Shown here: piece after piece, positions 16,300 through 21,079 of the stretch
Numbering within the stretch: the first letter of the stretch is position 1
Layout of the letters: every line of letters begins with the position of its first letter
DNA from: Aquila chrysaetos chrysaetos
Taxonomy: Eukaryota > Chordata > Aves > Accipitriformes > Accipitridae
Assembly: GCF_900496995.4 (NCBI RefSeq)
Contig: NC_044019.1
Location: 4,933,501 to 4,997,500 of the forward strand
Length of the DNA stretch: 64,000 bases
Direction: 5' to 3'
Program-made: the position numbers and the translations under genes
The notes under the pieces: model-generated
Told to the model about the DNA's origin: nothing
The model's database searches: none
What the model saw: only the letters and a program-made list of their open reading frames with translations

Positions 16300-19200
16300 T
16301 CACTGGTTGTCCCCCGGTTGGTACTGGGGCTCGGTGGCGGTGAAGTAGTCCTCGAGGAAGGACTGGAGGTACTCGAAGGTGGGACGCTCCTCAGGCTCCC
16401 GCTTCCAGCACTGCACCATCACTTCGTGCAGGGATGGGGGGCAGTTGCCCGGGCACTGCATGCGGTACCCCCGCTCTACTTGCTCCAGCACCTCCCGGTT
16501 GTTCATCCCTGTGTGACAAGGACCACTCCTCTCAGCAACCAGCAACCCCATGGGACAAGCCGGTGGGGAAACTGAGGCACGCCAAGGGACGCAGTGGCAT
16601 CGCCCCGTGGTTTGGCTAGGGAGCCCAGCTTAGCGCTGGTCTCCCTGATGGGGAAACTGAGGCACGGAGCAAGCCTTGCCAGTGGCAGTGCTGGGGATGG
16701 TCAGCCCCTGCCCTGTCCGCACCCTGCTGCCCAGCCTGCCCCAAGGGTGCCCGCTGCCCCGGTGGGGCCGTACCTGGGTAGGGCACCCGGCCTTTGGTCA
16801 CCAGCTCGGTCAGGAGGATGCCAAAGGACCAGACGTCCGACTTGATGGTGAACTTCCCAAAAAGCGCGGCCTCTGGGGCTGTCCACTTGATGGGGAACTT
16901 GGCACCTGCAAGGGGAGGCAGGTGAGCCATGGCTGGGGCACCCCACTGCACCCGCACCCGGGGTACCCCGCACCCGGGGTACCCCACACCTGGGGCACCC
17001 CGCACCCGGGGTACCCCACACCTGGGACATCTTGCACCAGAGGCACCCTGCACTGAGGGTGTCCTGCACTCAGGGGCACCCTGCACCCGGGTACCCATCA
17101 GCTTGGGCACCCATCACCTGGGACACCCATCACCTGGTGTACCCATCACCCGGGGTTTCCATCACCCAGGATACCCATTCCCTGGGGTACCCATTCCCTG
17201 GGGTACCCATCACCTGGGGCACCCATCACCCAAGACACCCAGAATTGGAGATGACCACCCCCAGGCCCAGGGTGGGATGCAGCACGGAGGGGACAGGGCA
17301 GCGGTCCCCGAAACAGCGGCGCACCAAACTGGCTCACCCTGGCGTGCCGTGTACTCGTTGTCCTCGATGAGGCGAGCGAGGCCGAAGTCAGCGATCTTGC
17401 ACACCAGGTTGTCTCCCACCAGGATGTTGGCAGCGCGGAGGTCCCGGTGGATATAGTTCATCCGCTCAATGTAGGCCATGCCCGCCGCGATCTGGGTGGG
17501 GGGAAGCAGTGAGGACCCCCCCGGATGCATCCCCTGGGGGGCACCCCCACCCCCGTTGCCAGTCTCCCCAGTACCTGGGCAGCCATGTCCACCAGCTGGG
17601 GCAGCTTCAGGTAGCGGCCGTCCCCATCCTTTAGGAAATCCAGCAAGCTGCCTGCAGGCAGAGGGTGCCAGTCAAAGCGTCCAAGAAGCAGCCGTGCCCA
17701 CCCAAGGGTGCCCTCCCCTGCAAGCCCCCAGCCCGGGGACCAGCTCCCTGCCCGCCCCAGCTGTGCCCAGGCAGGGTGAGGTTTGCAGAAGAGCTGGGGG
17801 AAGAAAAACTGGGGGAAGAAAAAACTGGGGGGGGGTCCCTCGGGCAGTGCCCCCCACTCACCCTGGCTCATGAACTCCGTGACGATGTAGATGGGCTCCT
17901 CCGACACGACGGCGTAGAGCTGCACCAGCTTGTCGTGCCGCAGCCGCTTCATGATCTGAGCCTCCTCCAGGAAGGCCTCCGGTGACATGGTGCCCGGCTT
18001 CAGCGTCTTCACCGCCACCCTTCGTCGTGCCGTTCCACGTGCCTGGGCCGGGGACACGGGGTCACCGCGAGCCCAGGGGACAGCCGGCCCCGGCAGGGCC
18101 GGGATGGAGGGGTGCGTGGATGGAGGGATGCATGGGTGCATGCTTGCATGGATGGATGGATGGAGGGAGGGAGGGATGCACGGATGGAGGAGCAAGGAAA
18201 TCAGGACAGGGCAAGGAAGGGGCATGATACCGCCGCACCCCACCCAGGACAAGGAATCCCCCTCACCCCACGGCATGAGGACAGGGCACCTGTGAGCTCA
18301 TCTCCTAATACCAACCTTACCCCATACCCCATCCCTCCACGGGGGACCCTGTGCTGAGCTGCCATCTCCCCCACAGCAGTGGGTACCGCCTGGCATCCCG
18401 TGATGCTGCCTGCCGGGGCAGGACTGGACTGCTCCTGCCCCCCCCGTGCCCCCCCCCCCCCACCCCTGGCCGGCTGGGCCAGCCTTACCCATCCACACGT
18501 CTCCGAAACATCCCATGCCGAGTTTCTTGTCGAGGCTGATGGATTCCCGCGCTATCTCCCAGGCGTCCTTAGCTAATCCCAGGGTCTGGGGCTTCATAGC
18601 GGGGCACGCGCGGGTTAGCAGATGGCACAACCCGTCGTTATATTCTGCGGGGGGGGGCAGGGAGGGGAGGAGGGAGGGAGGGGGTGCGATGGGATGAATG
18701 CAGCATGCACGCCGAGCGGAGGGAGCACGGGGCGCCGGAGGAAGAGGATGACAAAGAGGGGACCCCCCGGCCTGGTCTTGTCTTCTGCTTGTGGTCCCAT
18801 CTGAAAATGGGGGGGGGGGGGGGGGGGCTGCTTGCCCACACAGGGATATTCATGGGGCATCCTGGGGTACCTGTTGTGACCCCAGAGCAGGACATGGGAC
18901 GTTTCCCCATGCCGGCAAACTGGCGTCGCTCAGCCTGTCCCGACAGGCAGGAGCCCTTCCGTGGGGGTGTGGGGGGGGTTGCCAGGCCTGGGGGTGCCCC
19001 CGCCACCCTCCCACCGCTCGCCCCGGCTTGCCCGCCGGGCCCTACCCATCCACACTTCCCCGAACTGCCCGTTGCCCAGCTTCTTGAGGAGCTGGAGGGA
19101 CTCGCGGGGGATCTCCCACACATCTTTGGTTTTGACCGAGAGGTCGGCCAGCTTGGGCGTTCCTTTATGGCACGGCACGGCCAGGCGGCAGCACAGCCCA

Positions 19201-21079
19201 GCCGCCCGCTCTGCGGCACCGGGGTGGGGGGGACAGGCATCAGCCCGGACACGGACCCCCGCCAGCCCTTTGCCCCCACCTGCTACCCTGGGCATCGCCC
19301 AGGCTCCTGCATGGTCCAGTCACCCCCTGACATGCACACACATAAATGGGGTGCACACCCCCCCCCCCCCCAGGGACGGTCCCGCACCCCCTCGGGCTGA
19401 GCTGGACCCCCAGTCCTCCCCGGCTGATGCCCACCCAGACCCAGGAGCTATTTACCTTCTCCGGAGAGGCCGGGTGTTCCCTGCACCGAGGACACAGAAG
19501 AGGGGGGACCCCCAGGGGGTCCCCTAATGCCACCACCAGAACAGCCCCCTCCTTCTCCAGTTAAACCCAGCCAGCTGCCTCTTGCCAAAGGGTCTCCTGG
19601 GCTTTCCCTACCCCTCCCCATCACCCCTCCATGCCGCCCCCCCCCAGTGCCCCCCATCCCACCGTACCTATATAGTGCTGGACCAGCTGCTGGACGGTGT
19701 CGAACTGGGCGCGGGTGGTGATGTAGTAGCCCCCGTTGTCCAGTTTCCGAATCTTATAGTGCTTCCACGCTGTGTCTCCCTTCCCTGGACTACGTCCAGT
19801 AACGGATGGAGTAGGGAGTAAGGCACACTACATGGAGGGTGCGGTCGAGTGTGGGTCAGGGAAAAAAAAGAAACCAAAAGGACGGGGTCCACAGCCCCCC
19901 CCCCCCGTGTCCCCGTCCCTGTCCCCGTACCTTTTGTGGTCTCGCTCTCCCCGGATGAGGAAGGTGCCCCTGCAGTTGCCGTGGCACAGGAGCTGCCGCT
20001 CCGCATCCTTGCGCCCGATCTTACCAAAGTACCACCTGCCGCGGGGCCGGGCTCAGCGCCGGGAGGGCACCGCCGAGGGGCACCCACAGGACCCCGCAAC
20101 CACGGCCCCTCGCCAGCACCGCGGCGCTGCCGGGGCTCGCCGGGGGTGCCAGGAAACCTGGCTCCGAGGCAGATGGGGTTGGGGTCTGCCTCCATCCCTG
20201 TCCCCCCTGTACTCACTCTTCTGCCTGGATAGAGTCCACGGGGGCCACGTAGTTGCTGGGGATGTAACCCGTGGTGCCCGAGCTCAGCGACCTGGCCTCC
20301 CACCAGTCACCCTCCCTGGGGAAAGAGGAACCGAGAGTGAGGAGGAGGGACAGACAGACGGACCTGGCTGCCCTGCACCTCGCCTCCCCGCACACAGCAC
20401 CCCCAGATCCCGCTCTCCCCTGCCACGGAGGGCACACGTCTCTGCTGAGGCCGCCCAACTCATGACACGTGTGGCCCTGGCTCTCTTGCAGGTACACAGC
20501 AATGGAGCTGAGGCAGAGCTTGGGTCCCCAGCCCGGGTCCTGCGGGCGGTACCTGTGGCACGGAGGCACCTCCCCAGGGTGGCATGGGGGCACTGGGGGT
20601 GGCAGGGGGTCCAAGGGGGGGCTCACGTGTTGTTGATGATGTGGAATTTTTCCCCTTTCTGGAAGGTCAGGTCATCCTCCGTCCTGGCCTCATAGTCATA
20701 CAGGGCGATGAAGAGTGTCACGCCACCGCCTGCGGCACACGGAGGGGACGGTGGTGAGCCCCCCGGGGCCGCCCCCACACCCCGGCACTTCAGGAGTGCA
20801 GCTGGACCCCCCCCCCAGCACCCGGTCCCGCGCTGACCTGTGATGCCCCCGCTCCTCATTTGCAGCGTGTTGGAGGTGAAGACCCCCGGCCCCGTGAAGG
20901 ATGGAGCCGAGGGCACCGCCGTGCCGTGGAAGTTGTTGAAGTCGGGGATGCGGGTGAAGATGGTGCCCGACTGCGTGGGGTCGGGGTCGTACTGGGAGGT
21001 GGGGAGTGGGGGGGGGGCTCACCTCACCCCCCACCTGCCCTTTGCCAGATCCCTTCTCTTTGCAGTACACACACCCCAT
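16300..21079 (-). CDS. FGR: FGR/YRK Src-family tyrosine-protein kinase
   Basis: Non-receptor tyrosine kinase acting downstream of immune and integrin receptors at the inner plasma membrane. Coding exons (minus strand): 20838-21079, 20627-20729, 20217-20315, 19931-20035, 19668-~19826, then 19046-19210 (7A) or 18489-18644 (7B), 17862-18042, 17575-17651, 17338-17491, 16774-16905, 16300-16508. The start MGCVYCKEK carries the myristoylation Gly2 and palmitoylation Cys3/Cys6. An SH3 domain ([15 protein letters not shown]) follows, then SH2 (FLIRESETTKG), the kinase domain with VAVKTLK lysine, HRDLRAAN loop, DFG, activation Tyr in DNEYTARQG, and the inhibitory Tyr in [10 protein letters not shown]. 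Expected product is 537 aa (7A) or 534 aa (7B). The C-terminus GDNQ fits chicken Yrk as I recall it. Oddities: single-base insertions in exons at 21008-21017, ~19951-19954 and ~18018-18020, and a garbled exon at 19745-19826, all shifting frame; splice sites elsewhere are intact, so sequence error is more likely than pseudogenisation. Confidence 0.93.
16930..17240. repeat. Degenerate minisatellite in an FGR intron
   Basis: Roughly 16-18-bp units of the type 'cacctggggtacccatcacc' repeat with variation across most of the intron between the exons at 16774-16905 and 17338-17491. It does not disturb either splice site. Confidence 0.75.
18142..18190. repeat. (GGAT)n/(GGAG)n low-complexity repeat in FGR intron
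   Basis: Tandem GGAT then GGAG tetranucleotides, between FGR exons at 17862-18042 and 18489-18644. Confidence 0.8.
18489..18644 (-). other. FGR: FGR alternative exon 7B-like (mammalian FGR type)
   Basis: A 156-nt exon with good acceptor (CCGCAG) and donor (GTAAGG). It encodes the end of SH2, the SH2-kinase linker and the glycine loop, including [25 protein letters not shown] and [11 protein letters not shown]. This reads like human FGR at the same position, and its length equals FYN exon 7B. It is interchangeable in phase with the exon at 19046-19210. Confidence 0.9.
19046..19210 (-). other. FGR: FGR alternative exon 7A-like (chicken Yrk type)
   Basis: A 165-nt exon with good acceptor (GCCGCAG) and donor (GTAGGG). 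It encodes [32 protein letters not shown] and [11 protein letters not shown], matching the chicken Yrk protein and FYN exon 7A in both sequence and length. Because 165 and 156 are both multiples of three, either exon, both, or neither would keep frame. Confidence 0.92.
19668..19826 (-). other. FGR: FGR SH2 exon with garbled 5' half
   Basis: The 3' half reads cleanly ([20 protein letters not shown], then QQLVQHYI) and ends at a donor GTACGG. The 5' half should encode the segment around YSLSIRDWD but contains several insertions and substitutions, and the acceptor AG directly before GTGCC is missing. The exon measures about 159 nt against the 150 nt usual in Src kinases. This looks like uncorrected read noise over roughly 19745-19850. 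Confidence 0.75.

Follow-up and report, generated by a model that had tools for sequence, protein, structure and literature searches.

Two intact exons 7, of the FYN 7A and 7B types, in the FGR gene of the bird Aquila chrysaetos chrysaetos

Here, we analysed a stretch of 64,000 nucleotides (nt) of the genome of Aquila chrysaetos chrysaetos (GCF_900496995.4, contig NC_044019.1, positions 4,933,501 to 4,997,500; hereafter the window), which carries on its reverse strand a Src-type kinase gene for which, judged by its sequence, orthology with mammalian FGR is the best reading. We found that this gene holds two exons for one and the same protein segment, an upstream exon of the type of FYN exon 7A (FynB-like) and a downstream exon of type 7B (FynT-like, as in mammalian FGR). 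Both exons are intact, in phase and derived from separate old lineages, and both carry marks of protein constraint. We consider it likely that bird FGR keeps the ancestral exon 7 pair that FYN keeps, and that one of the two exons would be chosen per transcript, giving a 7A or a 7B form.

An exon pair of the FYN type

A preliminary description of the window had claimed two phase-compatible exons about 400 bp apart, the upstream one resembling FYN 7A and the downstream one resembling human FGR and equalling FYN 7B in length. All of this was borne out: the coordinates are exact (Table 1), both exons have open frames, AG/GT borders and identical phase, the upstream exon is 89% identical to the 7A exon of FYN in this genome (E 7.7e-29), and the downstream exon has human Fgr as its best match in PDB (E 4.8e-21), both similarities lying well above chance level. 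The residues read in both exons likewise agree with the claim that the choice between them exchanges the end of SH2, the SH2-kinase linker and the glycine loop. When the preceding exon (ending at 19668) was joined in silico to the following one (beginning at 18042), the frame was kept with 7A, with 7B, with both or with neither. Nonsense decay could therefore not eliminate double inclusion, and any exclusivity has to arise from splice-site choice.

Table 1. Features of the FGR locus in the window, and the FYN matches elsewhere in the genome
Feature	Position	Strand	Remarks
FGR (Yrk) gene, coding span	16300..21079	-	from MGCVYCKEK to natural stop
First SH2 exon	19931..20035	-	single surplus G within a G run (about 19948-19952)
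Second SH2 exon, precedes 7A	19668..19827	-	initial ~60 nt scrambled (~19760-19827); 5' end approximate
Exon 7A type (FynB-like)	19046..19210	-	165 nt; SH2 end, SH2-kinase linker, glycine loop GNGQFGEV
Intron separating 7A from 7B	18645..19045	-	401 nt
TGCATG (RBFOX-type word)	18704..18709	-	-65 of FGR 7B; FYN counterpart at -57 of 7B
Exon 7B type (FynT-like, mammalian-FGR-like)	18489..18644	-	156 nt; equivalent segment, glycine loop GMGCFGDV
Exon 8, follows 7B	17862..18042	-	first exon wholly within the kinase lobe; single surplus G (about 18018-18020)
FAM76 gene	51139..58993	+	Pfam FAM76, E 3.2e-29 and 2.5e-12; first and last of two exons recognised
FYN exon 7A match	contig C2, 57715042-57715203		from the 7A search
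FYN exon 7B match	contig C2, 57714417-57714563		from the 7B search

Searches of the same genome with FGR 7A (18 places) and FGR 7B (14 places), at E up to 1, gave two exons 7 in two genes only, namely FGR and the gene read as FYN, while SRC, YES1, HCK, LYN, BLK, LCK and FRK showed a single exon 7 each; the names of FYN and of these seven genes come from sequence and recall, not from annotation. For LYN, BLK, LCK and FRK the single exon is the result of the two genome searches alone; for SRC (9.9 kb), YES1 (19.8 kb) and HCK (9.9 kb), a search for a second exon 7 gave only matches at chance level (E 0.15 to 0.45). Seven leftover places of the 7A search (E 0.0037 and weaker) and three of the 7B search (E 0.52 and weaker) were taken as other kinases or chance. 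A pattern search of prokaryote genome contigs gave 118 matches, none of them a relative. The FGR pair shares with FYN 7A/7B the order of the exons, their lengths of 165 and 156 nt, the phase, a short intron (472 nt in FYN) and the alternation of Gln and Cys in the glycine loop, but FGR 7B is just about 59% identical to its FYN counterpart.

A tree of the exon proteins (15 exon rows and 50 columns, since the exons are short) placed each FGR exon with its own lineage, as did a second tree calculated without FRK and a duplicate SRC row. FGR 7B joins human FGR with a support of 99/99, and FGR 7A joins FYN 7A with 89/75 in the 15-row tree and 99/98 in the second one. SRC, YES1, FYN 7B and FGR 7B fall on one side with moderate support (85/79 and 82/80, respectively), and FRK stands weakly beside 7A (75/77, 15-row tree). 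In clade tests, for which the groups were chosen after the first tree had been viewed, a forced sisterhood of FYN 7A and 7B was rejected (approximately unbiased test, p-AU 0.0044), and a grouping of FGR 7B with FYN 7B alone was disfavoured (p-AU 0.034), as expected if the exons of SRC and YES1 are also of type 7B. A duplication inside FGR was considered as well, but the sisterhood of FGR 7A and 7B that it requires was rejected (p-AU 6e-47). By these tests each FGR exon descends from a 7A or 7B lineage shared with FYN. Since the exons of SRC and YES1 lie on the 7B side, the divergence of 7A from 7B appears to predate all four genes, on the sequences at hand, and thus to be older than the preliminary description had it, which had placed the pair before the split of FYN and FGR.

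This picture can be compared with a survey of tandem exon duplications in human that appeared in 2022 (PMC9741552). The survey derives FGR, SRC, YES1 and FRK from FYN duplications, each having kept one exon of a single inferred ancestral pair, with the FynB type retained in FRK and the FynT type in FGR, SRC and YES1. The further claim that mammals kept 7B alone in FGR stands for human, and there on the account of PMC9741552; human FGR is reported with the FynT type only, in contrast to the bird gene with both. According to PMC5224494, which cites Picard 2002, FYN 7a is a younger copy of 7b. An FRK-like exon about 2 Mb from FYN (contig C2, 59817777-59817884) has the three-residue insert of 7A (DLSYKT vs DLSVKT), in line with the statement of PMC9741552 that FRK kept the FynB exon.

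Both exons have evolved as coding sequence. Between FGR and FYN, 31 of 38.7 synonymous sites of 7A are changed, i.e. they are saturated, at a nonsynonymous divergence (dN) of 0.059; across seven more exons, with 7B set apart, dN ranges from 0.029 to 0.111, again with saturated synonymous sites, and the protein identity of 7A (89%) equals that of the other exons (79-93%). Saturated synonymous sites together with a low dN therefore indicate that 7A is constrained like the rest of the kinase and is no recent copy from FYN. In FGR 7B the synonymous sites are saturated against FYN and YES1 and nearly so against SRC (synonymous divergence, dS, 2.4), and this exon, by its sequence, has evolved faster than the others, yet as protein-coding sequence. 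In a tree with few rows, the differences of 7B from human FGR lie on the human side, with a bird end branch of about 0 and a human one of 0.41-0.42. A foreign origin of 7B was also considered, but its GC content at third codon positions is only mildly low (0.76, compared with 0.79-0.96 in nine other exons scored).

Identity and assembly state of the gene

The translated exons of the gene encode SH3, SH2 and kinase parts in order. The remainder of the gene, exon 7 excluded, falls with human FGR at moderate support (80/86). Its identity to FYN (87-88%) and YES1 (86.6%) is nevertheless higher than that to human FGR (84.5%), because the branch of human FGR is long (0.18 vs 0.045). SH3 and the start of SH2 have Fgr as their best PDB match, barely above Fyn (180.0 vs 179.6 bits), and the 7B search of the genome gave no other FGR-like exon. 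A FAM76 gene lies about 30 kb from FGR, and an LCK-like exon is found on the same contig. Both would fit the human FGR region on chromosome 1p. The orthology with mammalian FGR is read from exon 7B and from the rest of the gene, to which this neighbourhood may add.

The same gene was probably the one first cloned in chicken as Yrk. Chicken Yrk carries the 7A segment and the same tail as the FGR gene described here. In the review PMC8247114, chicken YRK is given as 95% identical to black swan FGR and as seemingly very similar to FGR, and the two are suspected to be the same; there and in PMC2654924, Yrk is nonetheless handled as a kinase apart from FGR. Expression of chicken Yrk in cerebellum, spleen, lung and skin is given in PMC2654924, there without exon detail. 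Our literature search, which left aside annotation databases (these may well contain predicted isoforms) and most subscription papers, returned neither a 7B form of chicken Yrk nor any description of FGR or Yrk with a second exon 7.

The indels and the scrambled stretch (Table 1) are probably assembly errors of the kind seen in long-read consensus sequences, because the indels are single bases in G runs, the scrambling is local and the remaining exons are clean up to the stop. The exons 7A and 7B themselves are free of indels. For any pseudogene call at this locus, the FGR indels are a reason for caution.

Further elements were noted around the gene. Just upstream of the first FGR coding exon, a degenerate array of a repeat of about 20 bp (21517-22998; 74 copies, 69% matches) contains many TGCATGGG-like words on one strand. 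Between FGR and FAM76, exons of a papain-family cysteine protease lie on the plus strand (33560-36080), of which 35865-36080 matches Peptidase_C1 (E 4.1e-12) and 33560-33814 is without a Pfam match, and a minus-strand HSP70 fragment (44845-45063; Pfam HSP70, E 1.5e-11) is perhaps the remnant of a retrocopy.

Splice signals and competing explanations

How would a transcript come to hold just one of the two exons? FGR 7B is preceded by a long pyrimidine tract and an AG-free zone of 125 nt, compared with 55 nt before FGR 7A. In FYN the layout is reversed: the long tract precedes 7A, and the AG-free zone measures 88 nt before 7A and 30 nt before 7B. The 5' sites of 7B have the better rough scores in both genes (FGR, 3.6 vs 1.1 for 7A; FYN, 4.6 vs 0.7). 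The same tract pattern is described for human FYN and tied to U2AF in PMC5224494, so that the reversed layout would predict opposite responses of FYN and FGR to low U2AF. Steric exclusion of the two exons appears unlikely, judged from the AG-free zone and without a mapped or predicted branch point: the zone preceding 7B extends 125 nt into the intron of 401 nt, and the distant-branch-point mechanism of OGDH depends on a branch point that lies no more than about 50 nt from the 5' site (PMC7969005). Regulated use of the splice sites would instead account for the choice, because double inclusion stays in frame and the intron appears not to be built for steric exclusion.

As a candidate control site we note the word TGCATG about 60 nt before 7B in both FGR and FYN, which is missing from the final 100 nt before the exon in a comparison set of eight further upstream stretches (FRK excluded). 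RBFOX binds TGCATG and represses exons from upstream positions. In shuffled introns, the word stood before both 7B exons in 0.0012 of 5000 trials; as it was picked after looking, with three motif classes scanned, we regard its sharing as suggestive only.

Several observations weigh against the proposal that bird FGR keeps and uses the ancestral pair. The evidence base is the DNA of one bird genome. The kinase domain alone scores higher with Fyn (500 bits) and Src (488 bits) than with Fgr (442 bits), contrary to a simple similarity argument, and three coding exons besides 7A and 7B carry indels. The dN of FGR 7B is 0.356 to FYN, 0.200 to YES1 and 0.198 to SRC, the highest among the exons compared with FYN, and 7B shares 36 of its 50 residues with human FGR and likewise 36 of 50 with chicken SRC, while eight other exon segments keep 75-94% against human FGR. 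As for TGCATG, P is 0.056 in a control that admits any hexamer common to both genes at a comparable position, and the word recurs 126 nt upstream of FGR 7A and within FYN 7B.

The divergence of 7B also bears on an explanation that we regard as unlikely, namely that birds use 7A only and that 7B is a fossil exon which lost its function in this lineage not long ago. The published Yrk form, which carries 7A, would agree with it, and a recent loss would be compatible with a single genome: in a neutral simulation starting from the present 7B, the exon remained open and indel-free in 0.35 of the runs at 0.05 changes per site. This fraction fell to 0.0005 when 0.4 changes per site were allowed, therefore only a recent loss of function could hide. 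A fossil exon is, moreover, hard to reconcile with several features of 7B: its frame is open, its AG/GT borders are good, its pyrimidine tract is the longer one, its 5' site has the better rough score, and its end branch since the split from human FGR is close to zero. If, on the other hand, the whole gene were damaged or dying in this species, both exons would be relics, as might be suggested by the single surplus G in each of two exons (the first SH2 exon and exon 8) and by the roughly 60 scrambled nt that open the exon preceding 7A; we judge this very unlikely, since the damage has the form of single-base indels in G runs and one local scrambling, no fault interrupts the other exons up to the natural stop codon, and 7B is the only part whose dN to FYN, YES1 and SRC is not low, so that long-read consensus errors fit better.

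Two further alternatives concern the origin of 7A and the use of the pair. The 89% protein identity of the two 7A exons could stem from a transfer of 7A from FYN into FGR by gene conversion or exon copying instead of descent from an ancestral pair, but this identity equals that of the other exons, the order and spacing match FYN, and the saturated synonymous sites rule out a recent gene conversion; only a very old event would fit, which makes such a transfer extremely improbable. Transcripts with both exons or with neither might also be common, as all four combinations are in frame, nonsense decay would spare double inclusion and PMC10939263 refers to a FYN form that lacks both exons. Double inclusion would duplicate the linker and the glycine loop, though, and such a protein should not fold as a kinase, and in FYN, whose exons are laid out alike, splicing of the pair is mutually exclusive (PMC9741552); non-exclusive use is in our estimation highly improbable.

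Thus, we favour a choice of one exon per transcript, as in FYN, with a FynB-like 7A form, which we take to be Yrk as published, and a 7B form that resembles FynT and mammalian FGR. A bolder version, which we put forward as a doubtful speculation, holds that a tissue switch older than the split of SRC, YES, FYN and FGR operates here: an RBFOX-type site would silence 7B in neural tissue, leaving the redox-blind Yrk form with Gln in its loop, blood cells would make the redox-sensitive FGR form with Cys, mammals would have lost 7A together with neural FGR expression, and Yrk and FGR would be alternative products of a single gene, each met in a different lineage.

Predicted effects and meaning for bird FGR

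The exchange of the segment would change the protein in two places. One is the SH2-kinase linker, and hence the strength of autoinhibition: for FYN, PMC5026472 (citing Brignatz 2009) states that the 7a/7b swap alters SH3-mediated autoinhibition and that more 7b is expected to raise kinase activity. The corresponding segment is exchanged in the FGR pair, which is known here from its sequence. The other is the ATP-binding glycine loop, which would hold either the Gln of 7A (GNGQFG) or the redox-sensitive Cys of 7B (GMGCFG), the latter of the SRC Cys277 type. This Cys gives SRC its redox sensitivity and is common to three Src-family kinases (PMC10016382); Yes and Fgr are named as having it in PMC6207713. 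The effect of oxidation on SRC is an inactivation in the former paper and an activation in the latter. With Gln or a redox-sensitive Cys depending on the exon, the choice should therefore switch the redox sensitivity of FGR.

The presence of both exons makes bird FGR an exception, outside human, to the statement of PMC9741552 that FGR kept a single exon of the pair, and it dates the loss of 7A in the human line to after the split of birds and mammals. Bird FGR thereby offers a second gene in which a FynB/FynT-type choice can be compared, and the exon pair offers a reason why chicken Yrk appeared to be a separate kinase. Studies confined to the Yrk protein would miss the predicted form of bird FGR with the SRC-type redox cysteine. 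Our results thus suggest that a bird may produce two forms of FGR, of which human is reported with one.

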